From Xestospongia bergquistia (Eukaryota > Porifera > Demospongiae > Haplosclerida > Petrosiidae), in NCBI GenBank assembly GCA_963965975.1, contig OZ014420.1:4366001-4430000 (forward strand): a DNA stretch of 64,000 nt. Direction: 5' to 3'. Positions 26,950-61,700 of this stretch are shown here, in pieces. The notes beneath the pieces were generated by a model, which worked only from the letters and a program-made list of their open reading frames with translations, was not told the origin of the DNA and ran no database searches. Both the position numbers and the translations under genes were made by a program. How positions within the stretch are numbered: position 1 is the first letter of the stretch; each line of letters begins with the position of its first letter.

Positions 26950-27760
26950 GAATTAATATTGCAGGATTATGTAACAGAGAGAGGGTTAACAATTCAGAAT
27001 CAATTTATATCACACAAGGCGTTTACTATTTGACACAAGGGTTAACATACACAATACAGACTTATGCAACAGATACAGAGGTTTTAAATGACAGCATTAT
27101 ATGGTCACTGAGGGTTAACAATTCAAGATTAATTACAGACACAAAGAAATAAACAATTTATACCTTACACAGAAGATAAGTCAGGAAAATATGACAGACA
27201 CAGAGGGTTAACAAGTCAGATCCAAGTTATACCACACATAGGGGCGGTTCATAATTTAGGATAGTGTGATAAAGACAAGAGGGTTAACAATAAAGTTGGT
27301 TTTATACAACAGATACAGAGTAGGATATACAACAGACAGACACTAACAATCCTGGATCACGTTATACCACATATAGGGAGTTGACAATTTAGGATTAAAT
27401 GAAAGACACAAGGGGAGGTTTGAAGTTTATATAACCAACACAAAGGGTTAATATTTCTGGAAGATAGAGGATAATAAGTCAAGATTATAAACACATACAA
27501 GGGGAAAAATAATGAAAAAAGGGATTAATAATTCAAGATTACATAATGAACAGTATAGAACATTCCAGACACAAAGGGTTTGAAGGTTAATTAAACATGG
27601 GAGGGTCTGACATTAGGGGGAGCAATAATGAATAAAGAGGTTAATAGTTCAGATTGTATAACACCACAGATATAAAACTTTTCAACACAGACACAAACAA
27701 GAGTATTTCTGAATTATTACAACACATGCACAGGGTTTGAAGGGTAACAAAGGGGTTAAT
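26950..27760 (+). repeat. Degenerate minisatellite (copy 2)
   Basis: Second copy of the ACACAAGGG/GGTTAACAA minisatellite of 22,795-23,560, with different unit losses. Confidence 0.7.
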
Positions 27761-29169
27761 GAAATATATATGGGAGGGTCTAACATCATGTTTAATACCA
27801 AGATGATAGATCACATAAGAGGCTATACAGGGCATTGCTATATATACCTACACAAAAGATAAACAAAATTTGAGGTAACACAAGACAAGGAGAAGCATAC
27901 AATATAAGATGACTTGTGTTGTTCCATATCCAAATCCACCTATTGATGCCTGAGACTAGTGAAGTACCTACAATTAAATTATGATATCCATATGAACAAC
28001 CTATAAAGTGATGCTTGACCACATTCAAGATACCCCATCAACCTCAAGATCCAAGCTGAGCCACAAACAGTAATCAATGTCTAATAATTCTCCAGATCCT
28101 CAAGACAAAACCAGTTATTAATGTCCAGTGTTAGTTGTAGATAAATCTACTAAAGAGACAAAAATAATTAGTAGTATATATAGTATAGTAAATGTATTAG
28201 TATACAACCTCATTATCAGCAGTTATAATGATATTCAACTAGAACATCAACTACAGAATAAAATGATTAAATGGAACTAAAAAAAGTATATAAAGATCAC
28301 TCTTACATAGAGTAATGATTAGAGAACTGCAGTAGATCATCTTAGTCCAGTTATCAATCTCTCACTATAAAATTCCAATTACTCCCTGTCCTGTCATCAA
28401 TATCTTGCCATAGAATTAAATGAAATAGTTTAGTATAAGATCATCAAATAACTAATAGATCAAACTTACAGTCTAGAGAACCTATTATGACCTTTAATCT
28501 GTCAATCCTATTAGAGTTCATTCAGTAATAATTGTACTATTTAACAAGTCAACTTATGTAACAGCAGGCGTATTAACAAATGTCATCAGATCATCTATTA
28601 TTGGTTATTAATAGACCTACTAAATGTAACAGAGATTTTGTTCTAAAATTATAGTTAATATATATGAGTTATATATTCTCACAATCATTAGAACATTATA
28701 TCATTATACTACAGAACAATAAGTAGTTATGTTAGGAAATTAGTAATAAATAGAAACAAGATCTAGATCATCTCAAGTTGGTGTAGAATAAGTTACTATA
28801 ATAAGAGAATAAATACTAAAAAATTCTATTAATTAACTTACTAGCAGCAGAACACTGATCTCCAGTAAATCAGCAAACAGTTGAAGTAGTCCTAAAAAAA
28901 GGTATCATTTAAATTGTTGAGTTTATAACAGATCTCAATCAGTTGATCATCATCTCCAGTAGACTAGTAAACAACAGTCCTACTATAAAATGAAAAATAG
29001 TTATTATAACAGTGAAATAATTATTGTTAAGAGTCTGCTGTATACTAAAATTACTTAACAATTCTAGTGTACAACAGTTTGTGTCAGTTATTAGAGAAAA
29101 AGGGAAGAGCCAGATACAAAGAAAACCTTCAGATGTCCTGTAAAACCCTCCAATTCTAGAAAAACCACA

Positions 29170-37600: not shown

Positions 37601-40320
37601 AATGCAACATGAATAGTTGATTTTTGTATATCATCATATAACTATTATTAATAATGAACAATCTAGATTTGCAAAAACAAACAAATGTTAATGTGACATA
37701 TGATAAATGATATTATAATTTTATGTTGTCTAGTACTGTGGGAAAAATCCTGTTATAAGGTTTTGATTTGAAAATTTTACAAAAATTTTTTACCAGTATA
37801 TGCAAAGTAATAGATGTGTTTCCTAATAACTATATCCCTTGGTTTTGACTTTGCAGATGGAGTTATTCCTCATGAGTGATTATACATATCAATTTATATG
37901 GAGGGTTGTCAAAAAGAATACTTAAAAACGTCAATCACTTTATGAATGCTATTATTATAACACCCACAAGAATGAGAGGAATCCAATGGTATCAAAAAAT
38001 TAATAGCAGTATAGCAAAGATATGGTTAACAATCAATCTGTAAAGTCAGAGCATACATCAAATGGAAGTTAATGTCATAAATCACTAAACTTTATCCTGT
38101 AAAATAGTATACTAGATATTAAAATAATTTTTATCAAAATTTCATTATAATGGTATGTAAATCCTACCTTGAGTTGAGACTTCATGACCTTGTCCAGTAG
38201 CAACTGAACTCACACTCTATAATTAATTACATATAATACTACAAATTATGAAATATGATGTGTACATACCTGTTCTTGTATTATCTCTCTTTTGAACCAA
38301 ACTGCTTCTTCAGCACTGGGTTTACGATATGATGGACTTTTTCCACAACAGATCGGTACACTAGATGATTGCTCATCTCCGATAACAAGATAATGAGGAT
38401 CGTTTGTTTGAGGACATTGTTTACATACATACTTAAACTTCCTTCTTATAGAAACAGATTGAAATGACTCACTAAGGAAGTCACTGCTAAGTGTAAGTAC
38501 TCGATCAACTTGATCTCCACAATCTTTCAAAACAACCAATAGCTCCTGGCATACTGCATTAATAGATCTAAAGGCAGAATTATCTTGAGCATATCGTAAC
38601 ACATCAATTTGCATAACAGAGTGGAGATCAGTGAGAATGATATGGTCCCTAGGTTTCTGTCCATATTTAAAGATGACACGATTACGATATATTCCATCTT
38701 TGAACTTCAGCTTACAGGATGGCCATCTGGCAAAAGATGTAACAAAGCGTGTAAAAAAACCTGGAGGTACAAATTTGGTGTTAAAGGTGATGTGAAGAGG
38801 AGTAGCTCGTAGATGATAACCAGGTGGAGCTTCAGAAGGATCTCCTTTGAATGACTTCAGCATTGCTGGTAGAAAATATTTCTTGACAGGTCGATCAAAA
38901 AATTTTTTAGTAGTAACTTCAGCAGCAAGACGAAAAGTAACTAAAAGTTCAACAATAGCTTCTGGGCTAAAGTCAGATGCTTTACATTCTCTCCAAATTG
39001 ACATATAAAATGGCTGTACTAAAATGCCTTTTTCTCGTAGCAATGTCCACATTTGTCTTGTTGCTCCATCAGCAGCTCCTTCATCTAATGTGAACAGTTT
39101 TCCAAGTGTCTCCACAAACCATTTAGGTTTGAGAATAACTTTCTTCTTCAGGCCTTTGATGTGGGGATAGAAGAGCACAACACCCAGATCATGATAAAAG
39201 AGGAGAGCTTTAGGAACATCATCATGTGGAATTGTACAAACTACTCCTATTTCACAAGCTTTATCAATATCAATGATATTTGCATCAAACAGTTGGATCA
39301 CTTTGCGAAAGAGAACCCAGCTAACTGGTGTTTTGACAATAAGCTTGTCATAAGTGAACTTACAAATGGTTCTTCGTATTTTACCCAGATTGGGATCTTC
39401 ATTTTCTCCTTTACCAGAAGAGGCATTGTCAATTATTAAGGTGTTATCAATGAGCTGAAAATATTCTTTGTCTTTATAATAAGATTCAAATTTCTCAACA
39501 ACTTCCTTTCTTTTATCTTCAGTCTTCAAGATATCACCATGAGTACCTATGCAGTACACACGAGGGTACTCACAACAACCACCATCACTGTTATACCTCA
39601 TCAGGTGACCATGAATACTAGCCATCCAATTAAGCATCAGATCAAGTGTGCTCACATTCACCTCCTCCTCAAATATTTTCTCTCCAGCATTATGTCGTAC
39701 AGCCTGCCATCGTTCCCTGAAATCCTTTGAGGCATCAAAAATGAGGAGGAACATGGTACGAGGAGTAAGAAAAGCTGGAAGGATTTCAAGAAAAACAGGC
39801 TGACCACCACAATCCCAGATGTGCAGAAATGGTTGGCGCTTAATATTCTTTAGAGCATCTGGAGACATTAGCTCAGATTTTGATATGGCTTTTGAAAGAA
39901 TCTCATCCACTTTCATGCCCTCTATGTCTTTAATTTGTGAAGATACTATTGAAGGATTTATCTTAGGAAAGCTAGCTACATTGTAGAGTGCTAAGGCTGC
40001 TGCACTACTAAGGACAGATGTGGTATTAGAAGGATCTTGATAAACTAAAGCAAGTAGTTTTGCCATTTCGTCTATCTCATCCTCATCAGTTACCTCTACT
40101 AACTTGTCATCATCTTCAAGGCTCATGTTGTACCACTTATGTCCAAATGGCCGAACACAGCTAACTTCAGATATAATTGTACTAGTAGTGTCACGTTTCC
40201 AAGGTAGCTTCATTAACGATCGCTTTAAGCTAGTTTTACCAACACCTGCAGTTCCGAGAAGCATGATACGTCCATATGCTACATTCATTTCTCCTTTTTC
40301 CATAGCTCTCTTATAAGCAT
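34642..40320 (-). CDS. ROC-COR GTPase with Death domain (DAPK-like layout)
   Basis: Probable large GTP-binding signalling scaffold. My exons are 40320-38270, 38216-38168, 37087-36792, 36599-36563 and 34841-34642; all phases agree and the stop TAG is at 34644-34642. The first exon has P-loop GTAGVGKTS, switch motif WDCGGQP and GTHGD as the base-recognition motif (ROC), then a COR domain (CTIPHDDVPKALLFYHDLGV and onward). The third has a Death domain (HARTAEWRLLGVQLELSDVD .. ARKYEDHLKRM). The last (TDCDAAWKVLVQCTDIIVGS, LARKLSSELVISKDVYKRVK) looks like the first half of another death-fold (CARD-like) domain, cut by the stop. ROC-COR-Death order recalls DAPK1, but no kinase or ankyrin repeats are seen. 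ATG 40301-40303 is the first in-frame start; the exon seems to open after TTTAG at 40,321, so a further 5' exon is likely. Confidence 0.85.
35530..36060 (-). repeat. Degenerate duplicate of the gene's own 37.8-38.3 kb segment
   Basis: Matches 37,780-38,310 closely: CTTGTCCAGTAGCAA, ACTCACACTCTATAATTAAT and the COR-exon end TTCTTGTATTATCTCTC recur in order. The copied small exon (about 35,880-35,928) still has its AG acceptor but the donor GTAGGA has become ATAGGA, and the copied COR-exon end is truncated with a lost GT. It therefore sits in the last intron as dead exon copies. Confidence 0.8.
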
Positions 40321-41400
40321 CTAAATGTATTAAAAATAAAATATACGAAACCCAAAAATAAGGAACATAGTCTTCACTTTATGTAAGATAGAGTTAAAAA
40401 TATAATACTATTATTATTGTATTTGTGTATACATTAACTGTCAGGCAGCTGGCAGCATTATAATAATAAGATTTCTTTTATTCTCATTATGACTATTAAA
40501 CACAAAACAGATAAGAACTTTCAATACTTGCAGACAACAACACTTAAATATTGGCTAGAGTAACTGATGTTTAAGAGTAACAAGACTATAATTAAAATCA
40601 TTGTTTTGAAGATAGTAATTTAATTAATGTTTTTAAAAAGTGAAAGTTTTCATAGAGTAATTACAAAGTGTTAGTAGGCAAAAAAAACAGGTAGCAAAGC
40701 TAAAATAAATGGTGTTACTAATTTCACAGGATGTACGAAATGTGGCAAAAAACAACAAAGAACAGTTTTCATTCTATCCTTGTGTTTAGTATATAGCTTA
40801 GATGGCTAAAACTAAGATTTTAGTACTAATATGTAATCTATTATCCTGATGAGGTAACAGCAAAATATCAATCAAAATGTCAATAATGGAAAGTTCAAGA
40901 GATGTTGAAGTGATGGATTGAACACCTAAGATGCTGGAGCTAGCAAAAGTAGTCTTCCTGTTTTATCCAAAAAGTATTAGTAAAGAACTACTTTATCAGT
41001 ATTAATTAGATATATAGGATGTTGTAGGTACTAATGAGATTCTAGCAAGGTACAAGTATATATAAGACAAAAAATATCACCACTACTTCTAAATTCATAA
41101 CACTATAGCTTATAGTACATACAGTCAATAAAATTATATGATAATTTACCTCTTCTTTCCTTCCATTGCCATATTTTCAATGGACAGTAATATGAATAAG
41201 GGTTCATCAGAAGAATGTTTATGTAAAAAAAGTCAATAACAACAAATAATAATTGTATCATGCAATACTTCAATTGAGTAATTATATCGCTTCATTTAAA
41301 GGCTATAAGGAGATGTGAGAGTACTAATATATTTCTCATTTAGGCTACCATTTCCATGGTTGCAGTTTAGTGACAAGTAGTTTGTCCAAAACTTGAATAT
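40321..41400. other. 5' flank or intron of the ROC-COR gene
   Basis: AT-rich and unique, between the first recognised exon and the satellite array. A GTAAAT after GGAAGGAAAGAAG on the minus strand near 41,150 looks like a donor, but no matching acceptor gives an in-phase exon, so none is called. Confidence 0.5.
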
Positions 41401-44400
41401 TTAACAACAACACATTGTCATCATTTAGTTAACATATAAATATTACAGACTTACAATCTAAATAGGTGTAGCAATTTAAAAGTGATTTATCATTTACAAC
41501 AGGAACATTTAAAAAAGAGAGAAAAGATATAATTAATAAAAAGGATAATAGTTAAATTCAACAAATAACTCAAATAATATCAAATACACTATATTTAGCA
41601 TTATCACAAAATTCTTATCATTTAGTTACACATATACATAGTACAGACTTACTTGCTAAATAGGTGTGGCAATTTAAAAGTGATTTATCATTTATAACAG
41701 GAACATTTAAAAAAGAGAGAAAAGACATAATTAATAAAAAGGATAATAGTTAAATACAACAAATCACTCAAATAATATCAAATACACTACATTTAGCATT
41801 ACCACAAAAATTATTATCATTTAGTTACACATATACATAGTACAGACTTACAAGCTAAATAGGTGTGGCAATTTCAAAATGATTTATCATTTACAACAGG
41901 AACATTTAAAAAAGAGAGAAAAGACATAATTAATAAAAAGGATAATAGTTAAATTCAACAAATAACTCAAATAATATCAAATAGACTACATTTAGCATTA
42001 TCACAAAAATTATTATCATTTAGTTACACATATACATAGTACAGACTTACTCGCTAAATAGGTGTGGCAATTTCAAAGTGATTTATCATTTACAACAGGA
42101 ACATTTAAAAAAGAGAGAAAAGATATAATTAATAAAAAGGATAATAGTTAAATACAACAAATAACTCAAATAATATCAAATACACTACATTTAGCATTAT
42201 CACAAAAATTATTATCATTTAGTTACACATATACATAGTACAGACTTACAAGCTAAATAGGTGTGGCAATTTCAAAGTGATTTATCATTTATAACAGGAA
42301 CATTTAAAAAAGAGAGAAAAGACATAATTAATAAAAAAGGATAATAGTTAAATTCAACAAATAACTCAAATAATATCAAATACACTACAATTAGCATTAT
42401 CACAAAAATTATTATCATTTAGTTACAAATATACATAGTACAGACTTACAAGCTAAATAGGTGTGGCAAATTCAAAGTGATTTATCATTTAAAATAGGAA
42501 CATTTAAAAGAGAGAAAAGACATAATTAACAAAAAAGATAATAGTTAAATACAACAAATAACTTAAATAATAACAAATACACTACATTTAGCATTATCAC
42601 AAAAATTATTATCATTTAGTTACACATATACATAGTACAGACTTACTTGCTAAATAGGTGTGGTAATTTCAAAGTGATTTATCATTTACAACAGGAACAT
42701 TTAAAAAAGAGAGAAAAGACATAATTAATAAAAAGGAATAAGAGTTAAATAGAACAAATAACTCAAATAAAATCAAATAAACTACATTTAGCATTATCAC
42801 AAAAATTCTTATCATTTAGTTACACATATACATAGTACAGACTTACTTCCTAAATAGGTGTGGAAATTTTAAAATGATTTATCATTTACAACAGGAACAT
42901 TTAAAAAAGAGAAAAGACATAATTAATAAAAAGGAATAAGAGTTAAATAGAACAAATAACTCAAATAAAATCAAATAAACTACATTTAGCATTATCACAA
43001 AAATTCTTATCATTTAGTTACACATATACATAGTACAGACTTACTTGCTAAATAGGTGTGGAAATTTTAAAATGATTTATCATTTACAACAGGAACATTT
43101 AAAAGAGAGAAAAGACATAATTAATAAAAAGGAATAAGAGTTAAATAGAACAAATAACTCAAATAAAATCAAATAAACTACATTTAACATTATCACAAAA
43201 ATTCTTATCATTTAGTTACACATATACATAGTACAGACTTACTTCCTAAATAGGTGTGGAAATTTTAAAATGATTTATCATTTACAACAGGAACATTTAA
43301 AAAAGAGAAAAGACATAATTAATAAAAAGGAATAAGAGTTAAATAGAACAAATAACTCAAATAAAATCAAATAAACTACATTTAGCATTATCACAAAAAT
43401 TCTTATCATTTAGTTACACATATACATAGTACAGACTTACTTGCTAAATAGGTGTGGAAATTTTAAAATGATTTATCATTTACAACAGGAACATTTAAAA
43501 GAGAGAAAAGACATAATTAATAAAAAGGAATAAGAGTTAAATAGAACAAATAACTCAAATAAAATCAAATAAACTACATTTAGCATTATCACAAAAATTC
43601 TTATCATTTAGTTACACATATACATAGTACAGACTTACTTGCTAAATAGGTGTGGCAATTTCAAAGTGATTTATCATTTACAACAGGAACATTTAAAAAA
43701 GAGAGAAAAGACATAATTAATAAAAAGGATAATAGTTAAATTCAACAAATAACTCAAATAATATCAAATACACTATATTTAGCATTATCACAAAAATTCT
43801 TATCAATTAGTTACACATATACATAGTACAGACTTACTTGCTAAATAGGTGTGGAAATTTTAAAATGATTTATCATTTACAACAGGAACATTTAAAGAGA
43901 GAAAAGACATAATTAATAAAAAGGATAATAGTTAAATTCAACAAATAACTCAAATAATATCAAATACACTACATTTAGCAATATGCCAAAAATTATTATC
44001 ATTTAGTTACACATATACATAGTACAGACTTACTTGCTAAATAGGTGTGGTAATTTCAAAGTGATTTATCATTTATAACAGGAACATTTAAAAAAGAGAG
44101 AAAAGACATAATTAATAAAAAGAATAATAGTTAAATACAACAAATAACTCAAATAATATCAAATAAACTACATTTAGCATTATCACAAAAATTATTATCA
44201 TTTAGTATACATACACATAGTACAGACTTACAAGCTAAATAGGTGTGGTAATTTCAAAGTGATTTATTATTCACAACAGGAACATTTAAAAAGAGAGAAA
44301 AGACATAATTAATAAAAAGGATAATAGTTAAATACAACAAATAACTCAAATAATATCAAATACACTACATTTAGCATTTTCAAAAAAATTATTATCATTT

Positions 44401-45539
44401 AGTTACACATATACATAGTACAGACTTACAGACTAAATAGGTGTGGTAATTTCAAAGTGATTTATCATTCATAACAGGAACATTTAAAAAGAGAGAAAAG
44501 ACATAATTAATATAAAGGATAATAGTTAAATACAACAAATAACTCAAATAATATCAAATACACTACATTAAGCATTATCACAAAAATTATTATCATTTAG
44601 TTACACATATACATAGTACAGACTTACTTGCTAAATAGGTGTGGTAATTTCAATGTGATTTATCATTTACAACAGGAACATTTAAAAAGAGAGAAAAGAC
44701 ATAATTAATAAAAAGGATAATAGTTAAATACAACAAATAACTCAAATAATATCAAATAAACTACATTTAGCATTATCACAAAAATTCTTATCATTTAGGT
44801 TACAAATATACATAGTACAGACTTACAAGCTAAATAGGTGTGGCAAATTCAAAGTGATTTATCATTTAAAGTAGGAACATTTAAAAAAGAGAAAAGACAT
44901 AATTAACAAAAAAGATAATAGTTAAATACAACAAATAACTTAAATAATAACAAATACACTACATTTAGCATTATCACAAAAATTCTTATCATTTAGTACA
45001 CATATACATAGTACAGACTTACAGACTAAATAGGTGTGGTAATTTCAAAGTGATTTATCATTCACAACAGGAACATTTAAAAAGAGAGAAAAGACATAAT
45101 TAATAAAAAGGATAATAGTTAAATTCAACAAATAACTCAAATAAAATCAAATACACTACATTTATCATTATAACAAAAATTATTATCATTTAGTTACACA
45201 TATACATAGTACAGACTTACTTGCTAAATAGGTGTGGTAATTTCAAAGTGATTTATCATTCACAACAGGAACATTTAAAAGAGAGAAAAGACATAATTAA
45301 TAAAAAGGATAATAGTTAAATAGAACAAATAACTCAAATAATATCGAATACACTACATTTAGCATTATGACAAAAATTATTATCATTTAGTTACACATAT
45401 ACATAGTACAGACTTACATCCTAAATAGGTGTGGTAATTTCAAAGTGATTTATCATTTATAACAGGAACATTTAAAAGAGAGAAAAGAAATAATTAATAA
45501 AAAGGATAAGAGTTAAATACAACAAATAACTCAAATAAT

Positions 45540-48500
45540 ATCGAATACACTATATATAGCATTAGCACAAAAATTCTTATCATTTAGTTACACATATGCA
45601 TAGTACAGACTTACAAGCTAAATAGGTGAGGCAATTTCAAAGTGAATTATCATTTACAACAGGAACATTTAAAAAGAGAGAAAAGACATAATTAATAAAA
45701 AAGGATAATAGTTAAATTCAACAAATAACTCAAATAATATCAAATACACTACATTTAGCATTATCACAAAAATTCTTATCATTTAGTACACATATACATA
45801 GTACAGACTTACAGACTAAATAGGTGTGGTAATTTCAAAGTGATTTATCATTTATAACAGGAACATTTAAAAAAGAGAGAAAAGACATAATTAATAAAAA
45901 GGATAATAGTTAAATTCAACAAATAACTCAAATAATATCAAATACACTACATTTAGCATTATCACAAAAATTGTTATTATGTAGTTACACATATACATAG
46001 TACAGACTTACAAGCTAAATTGGTGACGCAATTTCAAAGTGATTTATCATTTACAACAGGAACATTTAAAAAAGAGAGAAAAGACATAATTAATAAAAAG
46101 GATAATAGTTAAATACAACAAATAACTCAAATAATATCAAATACACTACATTTAGCATTTTCAAAAAAATTCTTATCATTTAGTTACACATATACATAGT
46201 ACAGACTTACTTGCTAAATAGGTGTGGCAATTTCAAAGTGATTTATCATTTACAACAGGAACATTTAAAAAAGAGAGAAAAGACATAATTAATAAAAACG
46301 GATAATATTTAAATTCAACAAATAACTCAAATAATATCAAATACACTACATTTAGCATTATCACAAAAATTATTATCATTTAGTACACATATACATAGTA
46401 CAGACTTACAGACTAAATAGGTGTGGTAATTTCAAAGTGATTTATCATTCACAACAGAAACATTTAAAAAGAGAGAAAAGACATAATTAATATAAAGGAT
46501 AATAGTTAAATACAACAAATAACTCAAATAATATCCAATACACTATATTTAGCATTATCACAAAAATTATTATCATTTAGTTACACATATACATAGTACA
46601 GACTTACTTGCTAAATAGGTGTGGTAATTTCAATGTGATTTATCATTTACAACAGGAACATTTAAAAAGAGAGAAAAGACATAATTAATAAAAAGGATAA
46701 TAGTTAAATTCAACAAATAACTCAAATAATATCAAATACACTACATTTAGCATTATAACAAAAATTATTATTATTTAGTTATACATATACATAGTACAGA
46801 CTTACAAACTAAATAGGTGTGGTAATTTCAAAGTGATTTATCATTCACAACAGGAACATTTAAAAAAGAGACAAAAGACATAATTAATAAAAAGGATAAT
46901 AGTTAAATAGAACAAATAACTCAAATAATATCGAATACACTACATTTATCATTATCACAAAAATTCTTATCATTTAGTTACACATATACATAGTACAGAC
47001 TTACAAGCTAAATAGGTGTGGCAATTTCAAAGTGATTTATCATTTACAACAGGAACATTTAAAAGAGAGAAAAGACATAATTAATAAAAAGAATAATAGT
47101 TAAATACAACAAATAACCCAAATAATATCAAATACACTACATTTATCATTATAACAAAAATTATTATCATTTAGTTACACATATACATAGTACAGACTTA
47201 CTTGCTAAATAGGTGTGGTAATTTCAAAGTGATTTATCATTTACAACAGGAACATTTAAAAAAGAGAGAAAAGACATAATTAATAAAAAGGATAATAGTT
47301 AAATACAACAAATAACTCAAATAATATCAAATACACTACATTTAGCATTATCACAAAAATTATTATCATTTAGTTACACATATATAGTACAGACTTACTT
47401 CCTAAATAGGTGTAGCAATTTAAAAGTGATTTATCATTTACAACAGGAACATTTAAAAAGAGAGAGAAGACATAATTAATAAAAAGGATAATAGTTAAAT
47501 TCAACAAATAACTCAAATAACATCAAATACACTACATTTAGCATTATAACAAAAATTATTATCATTTAGTTACACATATACATAGTACAGACTTACAGAC
47601 TAAATAGGTGTGGTAATTTCAAAGTGATTTATCATTCACAACAGGAACATTTAAAAGAGAGAAAAGACATAATTAATAAAAAGGATAAGAGTTAAATACA
47701 ACAAATAACTCAAATAATATCGAATACACTATATATAGCATTAGCACAAAAATTCTTATCATTTAGTTACACATATGCATAGTACAGACTTACAAGCTAA
47801 ATAGGTGAGGCAATTTCAAAGTGAATTATCATTTACAACAGGAACATTTAAAAAGAGAGAAAAGACATAATTAATAAAAAAGGATAATAGTTAAATTCAA
47901 CAAATAACTCAAATAATATCAAATACACTACATTTAGCATTATCACAAAAATTCTTATCATTTAGTACACATATACATAGTACAGACTTACAGACTAAAT
48001 AGGTGTGGTAATTTCAAAGTGATTTATCATTTATAACAGGAACATTTAAAAAAGAGAGAAAAGACATAATTAATAAAAAGGATAATAGTTAAATTCAACA
48101 AATAACTCAAATAATATCGAATACACTACATTTATCATTATCACAAAAATTCTTATCATTTAGTTACACATATACATAGTACAGACTTACAAGCTAAATA
48201 GGTGTGGAAATTTCAAAGTGATTTATCATTTACAACAGGAACATTTAAAAGAGAGAAAAGACATAATTAATAAAAAGAATAATAGTTAAATACAACAAAT
48301 AACCCAAATAATATCAAATACACTACATTTATCATTATAACAAAAATTATTATCATTTAGTTACACATATACATAGTACAGACTTACTTGCTAAATAGGT
48401 GTGGTAATTTCAAAGTGATTTATCATTTACAACAGGAACATTTAAAAAAGAGAGAAAAGACATAATTAATAAAAAGGATAATAGTTAAATACAACAAATA

Positions 48501-51000
48501 ACTCAAATAATATCAAATACACTACATTTAGCATTATCACAAAAATTATTATCATTTAGTTACACATATATAGTACAGACTTACTTCCTAAATAGGTGTA
48601 GCAATTTAAAAGTGATTTATCATTTACAACAGGAACATTTAAAAAGAGAGAGAAGACATAATTAATAAAAAGGATAATAGTTAAATTCAACAAATAACTC
48701 AAATAACATCAAATACACTACATTTAGCATTATAACAAAAATTATTATCATTTAGTTACACATATACATAGTACAGACTTACAGACTAAATAGGTGTGGT
48801 AATTTCAAAGTGATTTATCATTCACAACAGGAACATTTAAAAGAGAGAAAAGACATAATTAATAAAAAGGATAAGAGTTAAATACAACAAATAACTCAAA
48901 TAATATCGAATACACTATATATAGCATTAGCACAAAAATTCTTATCATTTAGTTACACATATGCATAGTACAGACTTACAAGCTAAATAGGTGAGGCAAT
49001 TTCAAAGTGAATTATCATTTACAACAGGAACATTTAAAAAGAGAGAAAAGACATAATTAATAAAAAAGGATAATAGTTAAATTCAACAAATAACTCAAAT
49101 AATATCAAATACACTACATTTAGCATTATCACAAAAATTCTTATCATTTAGTACACATATACATAGTACAGACTTACAGACTAAATAGGTGTGGTAATTT
49201 CAAAGTGATTTATCATTTATAACAGGAACATTTAAAAAAGAGAGAAAAGACATAATTAATAAAAAGGATAATAGTTAAATTCAACAAATAACTCAAATAA
49301 TATCAAATACACTACATTTAGCATTATCACAAAAATTGTTATTATGTAGTTACACATATACATAGTACAGACTTACAAGCTAAATTGGTGACGCAATTTC
49401 AAAGTGATTTATCATTTACAACAGGAACATTTAAAAAAGAGAGAAAAGACATAATTAATAAAAAGGATAATAGTTAAATACAACAAATAACTCAAATAAT
49501 ATCAAATACACTACATTTAGCATTTTCAAAAAAATTCTTATCATTTAGTTACACATATACATAGTACAGACTTACTTGCTAAATAGGTGTGGCAATTTCA
49601 AAGTGATTTATCATTTACAACAGGAACATTTAAAAAAGAGAGAAAAGACATAATTAATAAAAACGGATAATATTTAAATTCAACAAATAACTCAAATAAT
49701 ATCAAATACACTACATTTAGCATTATCACAAAAATTATTATCATTTAGTACACATATACATAGTACAGACTTACAGACTAAATAGGTGTGGTAATTTCAA
49801 AGTGATTTATCATTCACAACAGAAACATTTAAAAAGAGAGAAAAGACATAATTAATATAAAGGATAATAGTTAAATACAACAAATAACTCAAATAATATC
49901 CAATACACTATATTTAGCATTATCACAAAAATTATTATCATTTAGTTACACATATACATAGTACAGACTTACTTGCTAAATAGGTGTGGTAATTTCAATG
50001 TGATTTATCATTTACAACAGGAACATTTAAAAAGAGAGAAAAGACATAATTAATAAAAAGGATAATAGTTAAATTCAACAAATAACTCAAATAATATCAA
50101 ATACACTACATTTAGCATTATAACAAAAATTATTATTATTTAGTTATACATATACATAGTACAGACTTACAAACTAAATAGGTGTGGTAATTTCAAAGTG
50201 ATTTATCATTCACAACAGGAACATTTAAAAAAGAGACAAAAGACATAATTAATAAAAAGGATAATAGTTAAATAGAACAAATAACTCAAATAATATCGAA
50301 TACACTACATTTATCATTATCACAAAAATTCTTATCATTTAGTTACACATATACATAGTACAGACTTACAAGCTAAATAGGTGTGGCAATTTCAAAGTGA
50401 TTTATCATTTACAACAGGAACATTTAAAAGAGAGAAAAGACATAATTAATAAAAAGAATAATAGTTAAATACAACAAATAACCCAAATAATATCAAATAC
50501 ACTACATTTATCATTATAACAAAAATTATTATCATTTAGTTACACATATACATAGTACAGACTTACTTGCTAAATAGGTGTGGTAATTTCAAAGTGATTT
50601 ATCATTTACAACAGGAACATTTAAAAAAGAGAGAAAAGACATAATTAATAAAAAGGATAATAGTTAAATACAACAAATAACTCAAATAATATCAAATACA
50701 CTACATTTAGCATTATCACAAAAATTATTATCATTTAGTTACACATATATAGTACAGACTTACTTCCTAAATAGGTGTAGCAATTTAAAAGTGATTTATC
50801 ATTTACAACAGGAACATTTAAAAAGAGAGAGAAGACATAATTAATAAAAAGGATAATAGTTAAATTCAACAAATAACTCAAATAACATCAAATACACTAC
50901 ATTTAGCATTATAACAAAAATTATTATCATTTAGTTACACATATACATAGTACAGACTTACAGACTAAATAGGTGTGGTAATTTCAAAGTGATTTATCAT
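45540..51000 (-). repeat. Higher-order repeat within the array (11-unit block)
   Basis: Eleven units at 45.54-47.72 kb recur with the same private changes 3,365 bp later at 48.90-51.0 kb. Markers are AGGTGAGGCAATTTC (45,626; 48,990) and AATTGGTGACGC (46,018; 49,383). Between them, six units (47.72-48.90 kb) repeat the first two and last four units of the block. Other higher-order copies: three units at about 51.1-51.6 and 51.7-52.2 kb, and five units at 52.9-53.9 and 53.9-54.7 kb marked by GGGTAAATAGG (52,950; 53,948). Confidence 0.8.
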
Positions 51001-54000
51001 TCACAACAGGAACATTTAAAAGAGAGAAAAGACATAATTAATAAAAAGGATAATAGTTAAATACAACAAATAACTCAAATAATATCAAATACACTACATT
51101 TAGCATTATCACAAAAATTCTTATCATTTAGTTACACATATACATAGTACAGACTTACTTGCTAAATAGGTGTGGCAATTTCAAAGTGATTTATCATTTA
51201 CAACAGGAACATTTAAAAAAGAGAGAAAAGACATAATTAATAAAAAAGGATAATATTTAAATTCAACAAATAACTCAAATAATATCAAATACACTACATT
51301 TAGCATTATCACAAAAATTCTTATCATTTAGTTACACATATACATAGTACAGACTTACTTGCTAAATAGGTGTGGCAATTTCAAAGTGATTTATCATTTA
51401 CAACAGGAACATTTAAAAAAGAGAGAAAAGACATAATTAATAAAAAAGGATAATATTTAAATTCAACAAATAACTCAAATAATATCAAATACACTATATT
51501 TAGCATTATCACAAAAATTATTATCATTTAGTACACATATACATAGTACAGACTTACAGACTAAATAGGTGTGGTAATTTCAAAGTGATTTATCATTCAC
51601 AACAGGAACATTTAAAAGAGAGAAAAGACATAATTAATAAAAAGGATAATAGTTAAATACAACAAATAACTCAAATAATATCAAATACACTACATTTAGC
51701 ATTATCACAAAAATTCTTATCATTTAGTTACACATATACATAGTACAGACTTACTTGCTAAATAGGTGTGGCAATTTCAAAGTGATTTATCATTTACAAC
51801 AGGAACATTTAAAAAAGAGAGAAAAGACATAATTAATAAAAAAGGATAATATTTAAATTCAACAAATAACTCAAATAATATCAAATACACTACATTTAGC
51901 ATTATCACAAAAATTCTTATCATTTAGTTACACATATACATAGTACAGACTTACTTGCTAAATAGGTGTGGCAATTTCAAAGTGATTTATCATTTACAAC
52001 AGGAACATTTAAAAAAGAGAGAAAAGACATAATTAATAAAAAAGGATAATATTTAAATTCAACAAATAACTCAAATAATATCAAATACACTATATTTAGC
52101 ATTATCACAAAAATTATTATCATTTAGTACACATATACATAGTACAGACTTACAGACTAAATAGGTGTGGTAATTTCAAAGTGATTTATCATTTACAAGA
52201 GGAACATTTAAAAGAGAGAAAAGACATAATTAATAAAAAGGATAATAGTTAAATACAACAAATAACTCAAATAATATTGAATACACTACATTTAGCATTA
52301 TCACAAAAATTATTATCATTTAGTTACACATATACATAGTACAGACTTACAAGCTAAATAGGTGTGGCAATTTCAAAGTGATTTATCATTTACAACAGGA
52401 ACATTTAAAAGAGAGAAAAGACATAATTAATAAAAAGAATAATAGTTAAATACAACAAATAACTCAAATAATATCAAATACACTACATTTAGCATTATCA
52501 CAAAAATTATTATCATTTAGTTACACATATATAGTACAGACTTACTTCCTAAATAGGTGTAGCAATTTAAAAGTGATTTATCATTTACAACAGGAACATT
52601 TAAAAAGAGAGAAAAGACATAATTAATAAAAAGGATAATAGTTAAATTCAACAAATAACTCAAATAATATCAAATACACTACATTTAGCATTATCACAAA
52701 AATTATTATCATTTAGTTACACATATATAGTACAGACTTACTTCCTAAATAGGTGTAGCAATTTAAAAGTGATTTATCATTTACAACAGGAACATTTAAA
52801 AAAGAGAGAAAAGACATAATTAATATAAAGGATAATAGTTAAATAGAACAAATAACTCAAATAATATCCAATACACTACATTTAGCATTATAACAAAAAT
52901 TCTTATCATTTAGTTACACATATACATAGTACAGACTTACTTGCTAAATAGGGTAAATAGGTGTGGCAATTTCAAAGTGATTTATCATTTACAACAGGAA
53001 TATTAAAAAAGAGAGAAAAGACATAATTAATAAAAAGGATAATAGTTAAATTCAACAAATAACTCATATAACATCAAATACACTACATTTAGCATTATAA
53101 CAAAAATTATTATCATTTAGTTACACATATACATAGTACAGACTTACTTGCTAAATAGGTGTGGTAATTTCAAAGTGATTTATCATTCACAACAGGAACA
53201 TTTAAAAAAGAGAGAAAAGACATAATTAATAAAAAGGATAATAGTTAAATTCAACAAATAACTCAAATAATATCAAATACACTATATTTAGCATTATCAC
53301 AAAAATTATTATCATTTAGTTACACATATACATAGTACAGACTTACAGACTAAATAGGTGTGGTAATTTCAAAATTTATCATTTACAACAGGAACATATA
53401 AAAAGAGAGAAAAGACATAATTAATAAAAAGGATAATAGTTTAATACAACAAATATCTCAAATAATATCAAATACACTATATTTAGCATTATCACAAAAA
53501 TTATTATCATTTAGTTACACATATACATAGTACAGACTTACAAGCTAAATAAGTGTTGCAATTTCAAAGCGATTTATTATTTACAACAGAACATTTAAAA
53601 AGACAGAAAAGACATAATTAATAAAAAGGAATAAGAGTTAAATAGAACAAATAACTCAAATAATATCAAATACACTACATTTAGCATTATAACAAAAATT
53701 ATTATCATTTAGTTATACATATACATAGTACAGACTTACAAGCTAAATAGGTGTGGTAATTTCAAAGTGATTTATCATTCACAACAGGAACATTTAAAAA
53801 AGAGAGAAAAGACATAATTAATATAAAGGATAATAGTTAAATAGAACAAATAACTCAAATAATATCCAATACACTACATTTAGCATTATAACAAAAATTC
53901 TTATCATTTAGTTACACATATACATAGTACAGACTTACTTGCTAAATAGGGTAAATAGGTGTGGCAATTTCAAAGTGATTTATCATTTACAACAGGAATA

Positions 54001-56994
54001 TTAAAAAAGAGAGAAAAGACATAATTAATAAAAAGGATAATAGTTAAATTCAACAAATAACTCATATAACATCAAATACACTACATTTAGCATTATAACA
54101 AAAATTATTATCATTTAGTTACACATATACATAGTACAGACTTACTTGCTAAATAGGTGTGGTAATTTCAAAGTGATTTATCATTCACAACAGGAACATT
54201 TAAAAAAGAGAGAAAAGACATAATTAATAAAAAGGATAATAGTTAAATTCAACAAATAACTCAAATAATATCAAATACACTATATTTAGCATTATCACAA
54301 AAATTATTATCATTTAGTTACACATATACATAGTACAGACTTACAGACTAAATAGGTGTGGTAATTTCAAAATTTATCATTTACAACAGGAACATATAAA
54401 AAGAGAGAAAAGACATAATTAATAAAAAGGATAATAGTTTAATACAACAAATATCTCAAATAATATCAAATACACTATATTTAGCATTATCACAAAAATT
54501 ATTATCATTTAGTTACACATATACATAGTACAGACTTACAAGCTAAATAAGTGTTGCAATTTCAAAGCGATTTATTATTTACAACAGAACATTTAAAAAG
54601 ACAGAAAAGACATAATTAATAAAAAGGAATAAGAGTTAAATAGAACAAATAACTCAAATAATATCAAATAAACTACATTTAGCATTATCACAAAAATTAT
54701 TATCATTTAGTTACACATATAGATAGTACAGACTTCCAAGCTAAATAAGTGTTGCAATTTCAAAGCGATTTATCATTTACAACAGGACATTTAAAAAAGA
54801 CAGAAAAGACATAATTAATAAAAAGGAATAAGAGTTAAATAGAACAAAAAACTCAAATAATATCAAATACACTACATTTAGCATTATCACAAAAATTATT
54901 ATCATTTAGTTACACATATACATAGTACAGACTTACTCGCTAAATAGGTGTGGCAATTTCAAAGTAATTTATCATTTACAACAGGAACATTTAAAAAAGA
55001 GAGAAAAGACATAAATAATAAAAAGGATAATAGTTAAATACAACAAATAACTCAAATAATATCAAATACACTATATTTAGCATTATCACAAAAATTATTA
55101 TCATTTAGTTACACATATACATAGTACAGACTTACTTCCTAAATAGTTGTGGCAATTCAAAATGATTTATCATTTACAACAGGAACATTTAAAAGAGAGA
55201 GAAAAGACATAATTAATAAAAAGGATAATAGTTAAATAGAACAAATAACTCAAATAATATCAAATACACTATATTTAGCATTATCACAAAAATTCTTATC
55301 ATTTAGTTACACATATACATAGTACAGACTTACTTGCTAAATAGGTGTGGCAATTTTAAAGTAATTTATCATTTACAACAGGAACATTTAAAAAAGAGAG
55401 AAAAGACATAAATAAAAAAAAGGATAATAGTTAAATTCAACAAATAACTCAAATAATATCAAATACACTATATTTAGCATTATCACAAAAATTATTTTCA
55501 TTTAGTTACACATATAAATAGTACAGACTTACTTGCTAAATAGGTGTGGTAATTTCAAAGTGATTTATCATTCACAACAGGAACATTTAAAAAAGAGAGA
55601 AAAGACATAATTAATATAAAGGATAATAGTTAAATACAACAAATAACTCAAATAATATCAAATACACTACATTTAGCATTATAACAAAAATTATTATCAT
55701 TTAGTTACACATATACATAGTACAGACTTACAGACTAAATAGGTGTGGTAATTTCAAAGTGATTTATCATTCACAACAGGAACATTTAAAAAAGAGAGAA
55801 AAGACATAATTAATAAAAAGGATAATAGTTAAATACAACAAATAACTCAAATAATATCAAATACACTACATTTAGCATTTTCAAAAAAATTCTTATCATT
55901 TAGTTACACATATACATAGTACAGACTCACTTGCTAAATAGGTGTGGCAATTTCAAAGTGATTTATCATTTACAACAGGAACATTTAAAAAAGAGAGAAA
56001 AGACATAATTAATAAAAAGGATAATAGTTAAATTCAACAAATAACTCAAATAACATCAAATACACTACATTTAGCATTATCACAAAAATTATTATCATTT
56101 AGTTACACATATACATAGTACAGACTTACAGACTAAATAGGTGTGGTAATTTCAAAGTGATTTATCATTCACAACAGGAACATTTAAAAAGAGAGAAAAG
56201 ACATAATTAATAAAAAGGATAATAGTTAAATACAACAAATAACTCAAATAATATCGAATACACTACATTTAGCATTATCACAAAAATTCTTATCATTTAG
56301 TTACACATATACATAGTACAGACTTACTTCCTAAATAGGTGTGGCAATTTTAAAATGATTTATCATTTACAACAGGAACATTTAAAAGAGAGAAAAGACA
56401 TAATTAATAAAAAGGATAATAGTTAAATACAACAAATAACTCAAATAATATCAAATAGACTACATTTAGCATTATCACAAAAATTATTATCATTTAGTTA
56501 CACATATACATAACACAGACTTACAATCTAAATAGGTGTGGCATTTTCAAAATGATTTATCATTTACAACAGGAACATTTAAAAGAGAGAAAAGAAATAA
56601 TTAATAAAAAGGATAATAGTTAAATACAACAAATAACTTAAATAATATCAAATACACTACATTTAGCATTATTACAAAAATTCTTATCATTTAGTTACAC
56701 ATATACATAGTACAGACTTAGTTCCTAAATAGGTGTAGCAATTTCAAAATTTATCATTTACAACAGGAACATTTAAAAAAGAGAGAAAAGACATAATTAA
56801 TAAAAAGGATAATAGTTAAATACAACAAATAATTTAAATAATATCAAATACACTACATTTAGTATTATCACACAAATTCTTATCATTTAGTTACATATAT
56901 ACATAGTACAGACTTACTCGCTAAATAGGTGTGGCAATTTCAAAATGATTTATCATTTACAACAGGAACATTTAAAAAAGAGAGAAAAGATATA

Positions 56995-57313
56995 CCGTAA
57001 GGGTATAAATTTTCATGGGGGATTTAATTTCGCTGTATTCATGGGTTATTGTTTTATCACGAAATTTAACTTTTATTCCACCATGCATAATCACGCAAGG
57101 CGATCCTGTCGGTTACTTCTTTCTCTTTTACATTGAGGTACTTCTCCGTCAACTGCCTCCCAGATTTTCTTGCATATATGGTACCTTCTCACCATGGATT
57201 CATAGGAATAGCTAGCCATACTTCGCGAAAATCTTCACAACACGTGTGTGATATCACATCCATTAATTAATACTTCACACACACTAAACCCTCGAAAATT
57301 TGTACCCTTACGG
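56995..57313. mobile_element. MITE with CCGTAAGGGTA terminal inverted repeats in the array
   Basis: A 319-bp foreign segment interrupts one array unit. Ends are CCGTAAGGGTATAAATTTTC and, inverted, CCGTAAGGGTACAAATTTTC, flanked by TA on both sides, while intact units read GATATAATTAAT at that place. TA target sites and short TIRs fit a Tc1/mariner-type MITE. Its composition is less AT-rich than the array. It has no coding capacity. Confidence 0.9.
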
Positions 57314-57930
57314 TAATTAATAAAAAGGGTAATAGTTAAATACAACAAATAACTCAAATAACATCAAACACACTACATTTAGCACTATCATAAAAATTCT
57401 TATCATTTAGTTACATGTATACATAGTACAGACATATAGCCTAAATAGGTGTGGCAATTTCAAAGTGATTTATCATTTACAACAGGAACATTTAAAAAAG
57501 AGAGAAAAGACATAATTAATAAAAAGGGTAATAGTTAAATACAACCAACAACTCAAATAACATCAAACATACTACATTTGGCATTATCACAAAAATTATT
57601 ATCATTTAGTTACACATATACATAGTACAGACTTACAGACTAAATAGGTATTGTAATTTCAAAGTGATTTATCATTTACAACAGGAACATTTTAAAAAGA
57701 GAGAAAAGATATAATTAATATAAAGGATAATAGTTAAATACAACAAATAACTCAAATAATATCAAATACACTACATTTAGCATTATCACAAAAATTCTTA
57801 TCAATTAGTTACACATATACATAGTACAGACTTACTTCCTAAATAGGTGTGGCAATTTCAAAATGATTTATCATTTATAACAGGAACATTTAAAAGAGAG
57901 AAAAGACATAATTATTAATAAAATGTATTA

Positions 57931-58150: not shown

Positions 58151-58180
58151 TGATAGTTCACTATTATCTCTTTCAGCCAT
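58151..58180 (-). CDS. Candidate first coding exon (MAERDNSELS)
   Basis: On the minus strand ATG (58180-58178) opens MAERDNSELS and meets a perfect GTAAGT donor with no bases left over (phase 0). The next recognised coding downstream on this strand is the ROC-COR exon at 40,320, so this may be its first exon across the 16.5-kb array. Phase is a problem: the strong TTTAG acceptor at 40,321 would need phase 1, whereas an internal ATAAG acceptor eight bases further in (before RAMEKGEMN) fits phase 0. The assignment is inference and needs RNA. Confidence 0.4.
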
Positions 58181-58249: not shown

Positions 58250-59220
58250 TACTAATTTCAGTAATTTTAAATGTGTGTGATTTAGAGTAAGTACTAATTT
58301 TAACTATAAATTTGAATTTTTAGAAGCCATTTGGAATATGGTTGTAAGGAAAATTCTTCAAATATTATTTTTAACATGTACTGTAGATCGGGAAAGTTTC
58401 GTTGTTAAAAAAAATTCGAATATTAGACGGTGTACGAAAATAAATTACACGAACATTATTACACAATGAAATAAATAGGGTTAATAAATTTCGTATACAC
58501 CTCTTATGTTCGAAATTTTTTTAACACATAAATTTTTTACATGAAACTTTTGTAACGAGAAAGTTTCCTGATCTATGCTATATGCTAAAACAGAGACAAT
58601 TTAATGTTATTGTTTATTATCATTATCATCGTATCTCAATAAAAACAATATCCTCAGTGATATACATATATATTAACCCACTGCATCATCATTTGTAACT
58701 TATAAATTACCATATAGCTGGTTTATTGGTGACAACATTTGATTTGCTTATTGATGGCATGAAGAATATTAACTGTTAATATTATGCTATCCATTTAAAT
58801 TTACATTCATAAAAGCTCAATGTTGGTACAATTGATTCAAGAGGGCTGTCATCATTGTATATGACTAAAGTCAAATATTGAGGGACATCCAGCTTCCTTA
58901 GCCCCTCCCCCTCCTACATCTATACATTAAATCCAACCATTTTTCAATTAACTAGTATTATAATCATAAAAAATACGTGTGACTTACATCAGAGTCTCTG
59001 AAAGAGCAACCTCAATCGCCTCTTTTGATGTCAATTTAATTGCTATATACTGAAGTCTATCCAGGAAATTGAATGCTTTACGTACAAGTTAAAATATGAT
59101 CACACTCACTTACTGTGTTTATGAGTGTAACACTCTTAGTCTACAAACAGCTTCTATAAGGGCCTAAAATTCTAGTTGAAGCAAATAAATAGTCTGGCGT
59201 TGTCTACAGTTCGCTAAGAG
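58250..59220 (-). repeat. Duplicated upstream block, copy 1
   Basis: Collinear with 59,740-61,700. Shared landmarks include ATCATATAGCTGGTTTATTG-like sequence (58,710; 59,974), TAATATTATGCTATCCA (58,776; 60,049), CAGAGTCTCTGAAA (58,989; 61,466) and GTGTTTATGAGTGTA (59,117; 61,599). It may contain 5' untranslated exons: minus-strand GTAAGT motifs lie at 58,981-58,987 and near 59,110. This region is the likely promoter side of the candidate first exon. Confidence 0.75.
58388..58576. mobile_element. Small inverted-repeat MITE with TA target site
   Basis: Arms GATCGGGAAAGTTTC and, inverted at the right, GATCAGGAAACTTTC, continuing with TTAAAAAAA.TTCGAA on both sides. The paralogous block at about 59,835-59,855 reads straight from AACATGTATA into CTAAAACAGAGAC without it, an empty site. 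Confidence 0.75.
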
Positions 59221-59438: not shown

Positions 59439-59640
59439 AAAAGAGATAAGAGATAATTATTGAAATGGGTAATAGTTAAATACAACAACCCAAATAATAT
59501 CAAATACACTACATTTAGCATTATTGCAACAATTCTTATCATGTAGTTACACATATGATATATGTAGTACAGACTTACAGGCTAAATAGGTGTGGTAACT
59601 TTAAAGTGATTTATCATATATGTACAGTAAGTTTGCAATT
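59436..59640 (-). repeat. Stray unit of the 198-bp array
   Basis: Contains TAATAGTTAAATACAACAA, ACACTACATTTAGCATTA and GTACAGACTTAC, triplet agg, CTAAATAGGTGTGG. It lies outside the main array, between the two duplicated upstream blocks. The minus-strand TTTAG, 3 nt, GTAAGT layout is intact. Confidence 0.9.
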
Positions 59641-59739: not shown

Positions 59740-61700
59740 AGTTTCATAATGTGTACTAATTTTAGCTATAAATTTTAAATTTTGAGAAGTTATTTAGGAA
59801 TGTGGAGTTAAGTAAAACTATTCAAATATTATTTCCAACATGTATATACTAAAACAGAGACGCATTAATGTTAATGTCTTTTAATATTATTATCTCAATA
59901 ATTAAAACAATAGCGTCATTGATATTCATATAAATTAATCTACTACATTATCGGTTGTATTTTATTAATTATCATATAGCTGGTTTATTGATAACAACAT
60001 TTGATTTGTTTATTGACAGTGTGAAGAAGAACATTAAAATAAAGCCTGTTAATATTATGCTATCCAATAGATATGTCTATACACAATTCACCATTGGCAA
60101 CTTCATTGTATGATGTAATATTGAAAGAAGAAACTAATCATATCATTGGCAGAATTACTAAAGCATATCTTGAAGGGAACCAATATTCTTTTTACAACAC
60201 ATGGCTATCACAACTCTGGTGGCTTTCCATAGAGCTTCCAGCTTTCTCCTTGTCATTGCATTAGTACCACTTATTAATTAAAATAATGACTTTAATAGCG
60301 AAGGCAACAAGGGGGCAGGTGGCCAACCCACCTCAATAATTGTAGTTAAGACACACACACACCTGCTCTCACATTTGAGTAAACTAGTCATTTATTGACA
60401 ATATCAACTATTAAGAATTATTTAAATTCAACTACATTCCTATTACCTCCTTCTCTTCCTACTCCACTGTTTTGTAAAACCACTTATATCAGTTTAAACT
60501 TTAATGATTAATTTTTTGATGCCAAAAACATCAAAATATTTTTTCCAGTCATAAAACCTCCAGGTACACAGTATTGACTATATATCTAGTTACACAATAA
60601 GATAGAAGATATTAAGTACTAGTTGTAAGTACATTTATATACACTGTCTATTACAAATAATTGTTATATAAATAGTATACACTGCTCATACAAAATGAGG
60701 TATTGGTTATATGAATGATTCAACTTTCAGCATAATTTGTGAGTCATAGCTTACAGCTACATAGTCAGTTACTGTATGCATTTTTTAATTATATAATATT
60801 CCACATGTACATTATAAGGGGGAAGGAAAATCCGAAGGTTTTAGATGTGATCATACATGAAACTAAAGATAGGAGAGAAGAACAAACAGTTTAAGTGTTA
60901 AAACATTGGTACAGATAAAGCAAGTGTTAAAGCTTATTTCTATTGTTGTATGGCACAGGAAGTGCATACTCTAATGTGAAATTAATACATTTAGGTTCTA
61001 AGGTTTAGGATCTGGGGTAAATTATTACTTTCACATTAAAGTATGGTATTCTATTACTGACACTCTAGACACTGCCTTTTAATTATTATATAAATTGTAG
61101 TCTTGTTAATTTTGACCATTCTGATGGCAAACCAATAGTCAAATAAACCAATAAAGTCAGCTACACAGTATATACAGAGAGATACAAATATTGGGAGGGA
61201 GGGGTGTTGACCACATGGTAGGAAGTAAGTGTGTATCAGTGCATGAATAAATATATAAGAAGGAATGTATATCAGTGAAAAATTTGCATTGATTAAGATT
61301 CAATGGTTGGTGCAAGTAATTGGACTGTCATTCACAGTATATGACTAGAGTCAAATATTTGATAGACCTCCAGCCTCCTCAGCCCCTCCCCTTCCTATAC
61401 CTTTACCAAATCCAATCCTTTTTTGATTAACTGATATTATAATTATAAAAATGTGTGATTTATATCAGAGTCTCTGAAAAGAGCAACCTCAATCACGGAT
61501 CACCTCTTTTGATGTAAATTTAACTGCTCTATACCGGAATTTATCCTGCAAGTTGAATGCTTTATGTACAAGTTAAATCATAACAATACTCACATACTGT
61601 GTTTATGAGTGTAGCAGACTCTATAAAGAGCTTCTATAAAGGGCTAAAATTTCAAGTTGAAGTGATAAGTAGTTTAGCGTTTCGCTAAAAGAATAGAGGA
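59740..61700 (-). repeat. Duplicated upstream block, copy 2
   Basis: Partner of 58,250-59,220, expanded by about 1 kb of extra sequence between 60,070 and 61,310, including an (AC)n tract near 60,350. The GTAAGT at 58,981 in copy 1 is changed in the corresponding place of copy 2 (about 61,460). Confidence 0.75.

Follow-up and report, generated by a model that had tools for sequence, protein, structure and literature searches.

A 64-kb stretch of contig OZ014420.1 of Xestospongia bergquistia (genome of 146 Mb in 21 contigs), referred to below as the window, carries on its minus strand a ROC-COR (Roco) gene, and an array of 82 tandem units sits in intron 1 of this gene. Each unit presents three bases between a splice acceptor and a splice donor, and the array is very probably a series of exons of one codon each, which are spliced one after another to give an N-terminal peptide. 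The coding part of exon 1 (58151..58180) extends from ATG to TCA and ends in phase 0 at |GTAAGTTTG. The Roc-COR exon (38249..40320, with 38249 as a provisional 3′ end) starts in phase 1 at ..TTTAG|ATGCTTATAAG and reads DAYKRAMEKGEMNVAYGRIMLLGTAGVGKTS... Its open reading frame matches the Pfam families Roc (4e-10) and COR-A (2e-12), with Roc followed by COR in one protein, and contains GTAGVGKTS, WDCGGQ and THGD, which we take to be the G-motifs.

The array occupies 41455..57838, and its units lie about 199 bp apart on the minus strand, the first bases of the triplets running from 57838 (GAA) to 41457 (ATT) in window coordinates. Each triplet, set between ..TTTAG and GTAAGT.., is a predicted 3-nt exon of one codon, and the intervening introns would be about 195 nt long. 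Strung together, the triplets of the window gene give ESAREIESQSQQERLLSQQLLSQQEELSQQSQQSEQLFQSQLSLSEQLSLSEQLFQSQLSLDQSLQSLQQQQEQEQLLRLQI. An earlier note on this DNA had counted by hand 82 units, all with AG and about 79 with a donor, and this count holds: the acceptor AG is found in 82/82 units and the donor GT in 79/82 (GTAAG in 78, GTGAG in 1). The same note's nine triplet values, none of them a stop codon, were also recovered (CAA 27, CTT 18, TCT 17, GAA 11, CGA 3, ATT 2, TTT 2, GCT 1, GAT 1; stop codons 0). Strict cassettes in the window stretch number 79, compared with about 1.9 expected by chance. A pattern search demands splice sites, and units were therefore also located by their flanks only, with the core masked; using a flank model trained on the 79 intact units, this again detected 82 units in the window, with AG-NNN-GTRAG in 79. 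Window positions 40000-60400 gave 0 Rfam matches.

Some sequences in and near the array depart from this regular pattern. About 320 bp at 56995-57313 (minus strand), outside both tandem-repeat calls, break up the array beside the unit at 57440, which lacks a donor. Upstream of exon 1, beyond the range given in the earlier note, is a lone diverged unit at 59579..59581 (minus strand), with CCT between CCACACCTATTTAG and GTAAGTCTGTACTA. It adjoins a partial duplicate of the region upstream of exon 1 (58291-58793 and 59753-60066), and the duplicated stretch is perhaps a remnant of a duplicated gene start. Comparable lone units occur at C10:3972080 and C10:4150019, the latter with the donor GCAAG.

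Arrays of this kind recur in related genes. The genome has at least 36 strong Roc matches (E <= 4e-53, window gene included; the protein search scored 150 of 197 candidates), and we read the upstream DNA of 11 of them, the window gene again included. All 11 genes have AG-NNN-GTRAG arrays on the sense strand, 431 cassettes in total, and the same or related arrays lie upstream, on the same strand, of other COR-A matches. The gene C11b was a case in which an array could be expected in advance, because the stretch is flanked by a COR-A match at 5701169 and, near C11:5679851, by a copy of exon 1; 92 strict cassettes were found between them. Five further paralogs (C5, C7, C10n, C1 and C12), for each of which 10 kb upstream was read, were picked by relatedness and not by signs of an array, and arrays were present in 5/5. 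The disrupted loci C10a and C10b carry units too and were excluded from the cassette counts.

The units themselves differ between these genes. Their spacing is mostly 115-135 bp in C10n, where units are partly diverged, 181 bp in C7, 205 bp in C5 and about 199 bp in the C10 and C11 genes. The introns of C1 and C12 have little similarity to one another outside the splice sites, i.e. they are not repetitive, and measure 60-165 nt (C1) and 81-793 nt (C12) between strict cassettes; the entire C1 array, with about 10 codon exons, covers only about 0.8 kb. Because the unit families differ in length and the C1 and C12 introns are non-repetitive, while the cassette is common to all, the window satellite is best seen as a homogenised form of an exon-intron array, not as the source of the motif.

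The Roco family to which these genes belong is very large and largely clustered, with at least 146 COR-A matches genome-wide (E up to 0.001) and clusters at C10:1.40-1.70 Mb, C11:6.37-6.47 Mb and C12:5.39-5.54 Mb. A genome-wide scan for three cassettes separated by 60-90-nt gaps gave 58 matches, compared with 149 for the reversed pattern used as a control, and at least 23 of the 58 fall in short-period repeats (15 on C3, 8 at C12:4.99 Mb). Because of these repeats and the higher control count, the number of matches is uninformative and only their placement helps. Three Roc genes on C1, among them the C1 gene read above, are preceded on their own strand by eight of the matches, and a Roc match on C15 is preceded by three, at a distance of 5-10 kb. 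Separately, an 84-86-bp periodic repeat at C8:6984129-6986001 (plus strand) contains 21 matches and could be either a codon-exon array or a chance satellite; there are two further matches at C8:1.87 Mb and one at C12:5298396.

In all genes read, the cassette is confined to one length and one strand. We counted AG-N{k}-GTRAG in sense and antisense orientation for k = 0 to 30. In the order window gene, C10c, C10d, C11a, C11b, C14, C5, C7, C10n, C1 and C12, the sense counts at k = 3 are 79, 24, 16, 45, 92, 29, 33, 42, 34, 10 and 27. Sense counts at any other k are at most 2, except at k = 0 in C7, where the count of 19 equals its 18 GAG and one AAG codons, and at k = 1 in C5, where the count of 9 equals its 6 AGA and 3 AGT codons. 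Antisense counts at k = 3 are 0 in 11/11 genes, with a maximum of 3 at other values of k. The background, taken from both strands of 131.8 kb of other DNA of these loci, averages 0.107 per kb and strand over all k and is 0.144 at k = 3; at the average rate, the 27 cassettes of C12 compare with 0.59 expected by chance and the 10 of C1 with 0.14. Flank-only detection in seven genes found the cassette in 353/366 units, and 7 of the other 13 have AG-NNN-GT with a weaker donor.

The splice sites are likewise of high uniformity. Among the 431 cassettes, the donor is GTAAGT in 419 (the rest being GTGAGT 6, GTAAGC 4, GTAAGG 1 and GTAAGA 1), and the acceptor is TAG in 384, CAG in 31, AAG in 15 and GAG in 1. 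Upstream of the acceptor, the next AG lies at a median distance of 94 nt in C14 and of 109 nt, the limit of the test, in C11a, the window gene, C10c and C10d, compared with 19 nt for GA; in C1 taken with C12, C10n, C5 and C7 the median is at a 58-nt test limit, compared with 27-35 nt for GA. By sequence, then, the triplets fall within the definition of microexons, with no more than 30 nt between the 3′ and the 5′ splice site. Intron lengths are mixed modulo 3, so that only the exons keep the frame. A possible avoidance of NAG and AGN triplets, which would guard against NAGNAG acceptors, is apparent in the C10, C11 and C14 genes, but C5 (AGA, AGT) and C7 (GAG, AAG) do not show it, and it was rejected.

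Within the units, variation is concentrated between acceptor and donor, as the earlier note had suspected. The entropies of the three triplet columns in the window array rank 2, 1 and 6 of 203 columns (1.49, 1.67 and 1.00 bits, with a mean of 0.17 over all columns). On a tree of the 79 window units with intact sites, built with the triplet left out and 3 units omitted, the triplet columns require 19, 23 and 17 Fitch changes, compared with a mean of 1.23 and a maximum of 12 for the 188 other columns. The unit trees of the window gene and of C7 agree in that every triplet column exceeds all other columns in changes. Two triplet columns of C11a stand above all others and the third equals the highest other column, while the ranks are 3, 1 and 1 in C5, 2, 2 and 14 (of about 180) in C11b and 1, 1 and 45 (of about 170) in C14, third triplet positions being less extreme in some genes. 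We propose that exchange between units would homogenise the introns and selection would hold AG and GTAAGT, with codon differences being retained or favoured; if the peptide matters, the codon would vary because no other part of the unit specifies the peptide sequence, whereas the splice sites on either side have to be preserved. It is conceivable that a targeted mutator lies behind the variation of the triplet.

The triplets also behave as sense codons. They comprise 39 types, and TAA, TAG and TGA occur 0 times where about 37 would be expected, given a stop frequency of 5-10% among the other triplets of these arrays. If a triplet is scored a single time for each gene (108 states), the absence of stops has P about 1e-4. 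Triplets beginning with T end in AA, AG or GA in 0/62 cases, compared with 211/369 for the other first bases (0/16 vs 33/92 when counted once per gene, p 0.0024). The third position is C in only 2/431 triplets, and the first is G or C in 74%. The predicted amino acid strings differ strongly between paralogs, that of the window gene being rich in Q, L, S and E, that of C11b in E, R and L, that of C7 in E, A, Y and L, and that of C5 in R, P, N, S, D and K. Among the meanings that the earlier note had considered, an array of 3-nt microexons is strongly supported by the paralogs: in all 11 genes read, the window gene included, the cassettes are always 3 nt, in sense orientation and free of stops, and the introns of two of these genes are not satellite.

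Furthermore, the predicted exons can be read in one frame. The junction that the earlier note had envisaged, from 58,151 directly to 40,320, joins exon 1 to the Roc-COR exon out of frame and runs into TGA after 11 codons. An additional exon is therefore needed, and this is probably the 10-nt sequence GAAAGAAGAG at 41150..41159 (minus strand), predicted within ..GGAAG|GAAAGAAGAG|GTAAAT. The small exon was defined by the first AG past a 106-nt stretch free of AG, and its acceptor, GGAAG, is poor by consensus. Its length is 1 mod 3, and it would bridge the array, in phase 0, and the Roc exon, in phase 1 (ERR-D). The same rule, i.e. the first AG after a long AG-free stretch before the donor of the small exon, was applied to eight genes with no filter for frame, the AG-free stretch being 75-107 nt in seven genes and 35 nt in C1. 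The resulting lengths are 1 mod 3 in 7/8 genes, namely 10 nt in the window gene and C10c, 13 nt in C11a and C11b, 19 nt in C14 and C5 and 25 nt in C1, and in these seven exon 1, the triplets, the small exon and the Roc exon are frame-compatible. The counterparts of the small exon read EWKERR (C5), QEKETR (C14), KERR (C11a and C11b) and QAKQKEKR (C1). Copies resembling exon 1 were found by DNA similarity in C10b, C10c, C10d, C11a, C11b and C14, and 30-nt counterparts, MAKRYYSKNP and MAERNERPNL, were found in C5 and C7, respectively, where only phase-0 candidates were listed.

The cassettes, their length and strand, the gene context, the absence of stops, the agreement in frame and the recurrence in paralogs are all observed directly in the DNA, and together they argue for codon-sized exons. 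From them we infer that the exons are spliced, that most are included and that this happens in sequence, as well as any role of the peptide. The predicted gene would consist of a 10-codon exon, about 80 phase-0 exons of 3 nt with their own short introns, a 10-nt exon and a long Roc-COR exon. An exon of 3 nt could not have both of its ends bound at the same time. Given intron lengths of 60-200 nt, however, intron definition could pair each donor with the next acceptor, and each step would add the next codon to the growing 5′ exon and bring up a fresh GTAAGT donor three bases on. The fresh donor would remove the steric problem of the 3-nt exon, as the next step would start from a normal long exon, and serial recursive joining would spell a peptide one codon per exon. 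In the window gene, copies of the exon-intron unit would have multiplied, and their introns would have become so alike that they form a satellite-like repeat. Where the earlier note had imagined that the array adds or swaps one residue, it more likely encodes a peptide of at most about 80 residues, or some selection of these residues.

Several points weigh against single-codon exons, or lessen the force of the evidence for them. Exons of 3 nt are hard for spliceosomes. Donors are broken in three of the 82 window units (57440, 56724 and 54740), so that the usable exons probably number 79, and C14 and C12 have several longer gaps without a cassette. Because the units are copies of one another, the absence of stops among 431 triplets is a weaker test than it appears. 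When 80 triplets at fixed offsets were scored in each gene for the absence of stops from every unit, the stop-free offsets numbered 37, 43, 62, 55, 22, 10, 41, 70, 35, 41 and 17, in the order of genes given above. Only the combination over several genes is unusual, and its value of about 1e-4 is multiplied as if the genes were independent, whereas those on C10 and C11 are closely related. In the frame test, C10d fails with a small exon of 9 nt, and for C7, C10n and C12 the small exon is no more than tentative, the candidates coming from a list restricted to 1 mod 3. No exon 1 for C10n and C1 was among the phase-0 candidates, and C12 has only a doubtful candidate of 15 nt. The Roc exon has a deletion in C10d and an in-frame TAA in C10c, so some of the gene copies may be dead. 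Finally, no heptad (3.5-residue) periodicity was detected in any of the 11 predicted peptides (p 0.17-0.97), and a coiled coil, to which the low Pro and Gly content of several peptides might have pointed, was rejected on this ground.

Of the other explanations, the one that survives best overlaps with the inclusion of most exons and is a possible, though less probable, variant of it: the one-codon exons would be real, but each mRNA would take a subset or just one of them, yielding a repertoire of peptides. Since every exon is symmetric, skipping would never shift the frame. It would suit this explanation that all 431 strict cassettes are 3 nt long and that few parts of the unit vary as much as the codon, and brown-algal ROCO genes are reported to splice tandem exons encoding leucine-rich repeats (LRRs) alternatively (PMC11378527). 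However, a full GTAAGT in 419/431 donors looks constitutive, and the C1 gene, with only about 10 exons and short unique introns, also tells against it.

The earlier note had also suggested recursive-splicing stepping points, at which a long intron is removed stepwise and the triplets are skipped or lie in noncoding sequence. The regenerated donor in AG-NNN-GTAAGT and the short, sequential introns agree with this, and recursive splicing itself remains the probable way in which the introns are removed. The triplets, however, appear to be kept and translated, and we consider it improbable that they are mere stepping points. At known ratchet points of recursive splicing, AG lies directly beside GTAAGT with zero nucleotides between them, and the donor is regenerated at each step. 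Whereas no base is left there, three bases would remain per step here and behave as sense codons. Zero-length ratchets would suffice to remove a long intron, yet AG|GTRAG occurs 0-1 times per gene in 10/11 genes, the 19 in C7 being codons that end in AG. Moreover, none of the triplets is a stop, and the C1 gene carries cassettes despite an array of only about 0.8 kb.

Least probable is that a neutral satellite carries a splice-like motif by chance, the triplet being a mutational hotspot or a spacer in a protein-binding site: the window alone does look like a clean 199-bp tandem repeat, and many other columns are stop-free in several repetitive genes, but one 3-nt cassette is shared by unit families of about 115-135, 181, 199 and 205 bp, lies on the sense strand ahead of the Roc exon in 11/11 genes read, lacks stops and agrees in frame in 7/8 genes, and the non-repetitive arrays of C12 and C1 led us to reject a neutral satellite, a transposon footprint and a protein-binding spacer alike. 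Satellite DNA as a class, i.e. a tandem repeat with no coding constraint, therefore does not describe these arrays, given their stop avoidance, their frame and their non-repetitive paralogs.

Single-codon exons of the kind predicted here would resemble several known systems. The micro-exon genes (MEGs) of schistosomes have tandem short exons, mostly multiples of three in length, that yield variable peptides and for which alternative splicing has been reported; the exons are mostly 15 bp, with a minimum of 6 bp in the text and a range of 3-81 bp in the abstract, and the products are secreted trematode proteins (PMC10526429). The arrays described here share with MEGs the tandem symmetric microexons, here predicted, with introns between them. 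They differ in that every predicted exon is exactly 3 nt, in runs of about 10-95, in Roc-COR genes, and with introns that in some genes are homogenised as a satellite. Next to the predicted microexons, the Roc-COR exon of about 2 kb makes up most of the coding sequence. No N-terminal signal peptide was seen by eye in exon 1 (MAERDNSELS), with no hydrophobic segment ahead of the array. Brown-algal ROCO genes have 72-bp phase-2 exons, each encoding one LRR, which are shuffled and alternatively spliced (PMC11378527). These are alike in the ROC-COR family, in the tandem symmetric exons N-terminal to Roc and in diversification, but the exons here are 3 nt, in phase 0 and encode one residue each.

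That exons this small can be spliced is indicated by plant genes. Arabidopsis APC11 has a constitutive 1-nt exon, for which its authors suggest intron definition combined with recursive splicing (PMC4674806), and conserved GTRAGT donors are described at 1-nt exons of VPS55 among plant microexons (PMC8831610). Those exons are isolated, however, whereas here runs of tens would spell a peptide. We found no description of tandem one-codon exons among the titles and abstract beginnings that searches of the open-licence PubMed Central literature listed. The present genes would share the tandem symmetric-exon plan of known tandem microexon genes, with exon size at its limit.

Other features of the window lie away from the array. 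At 10628-12495 (plus strand) there are matches to Pfam Transposase_21 (tnp2, 3.7e-19, frame 10628-11212) and DUF4218 (1.9e-11, frame 11878-12495), a combination presumably as in CACTA/EnSpm transposons. An open frame at 742-1404 (minus strand) has a weak match, below the cut-off, to the DDE_3 endonuclease family (4e-05), and 21137-29019 is a nest of diverged direct repeats, of about 70-90% identity and up to 2.7 kb, largely A-skewed.

If the window gene and its paralogs are spliced as predicted, exon and codon would coincide over runs of up to 90 or more, which is the limit of gene subdivision. Such genes would lend themselves to testing how spliceosomes deal with exons too small for exon definition, and whether serial recursive splicing proceeds in order. 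The protein would gain or lose single residues through tandem-repeat dynamics, with no risk of a frameshift. More tentatively, if residue-by-residue recursive assembly were combined with variable inclusion, one gene of about 80 exons could furnish its Roc GTPase with a vast range of N-terminal peptides, serving for instance in recognition or immunity, from arrays that lengthen, shorten and shuffle by unequal exchange without breaking the frame. The arrays would also be a warning that ‘intronic satellites’ can conceal coding sequence which may escape gene finders and read mappers.

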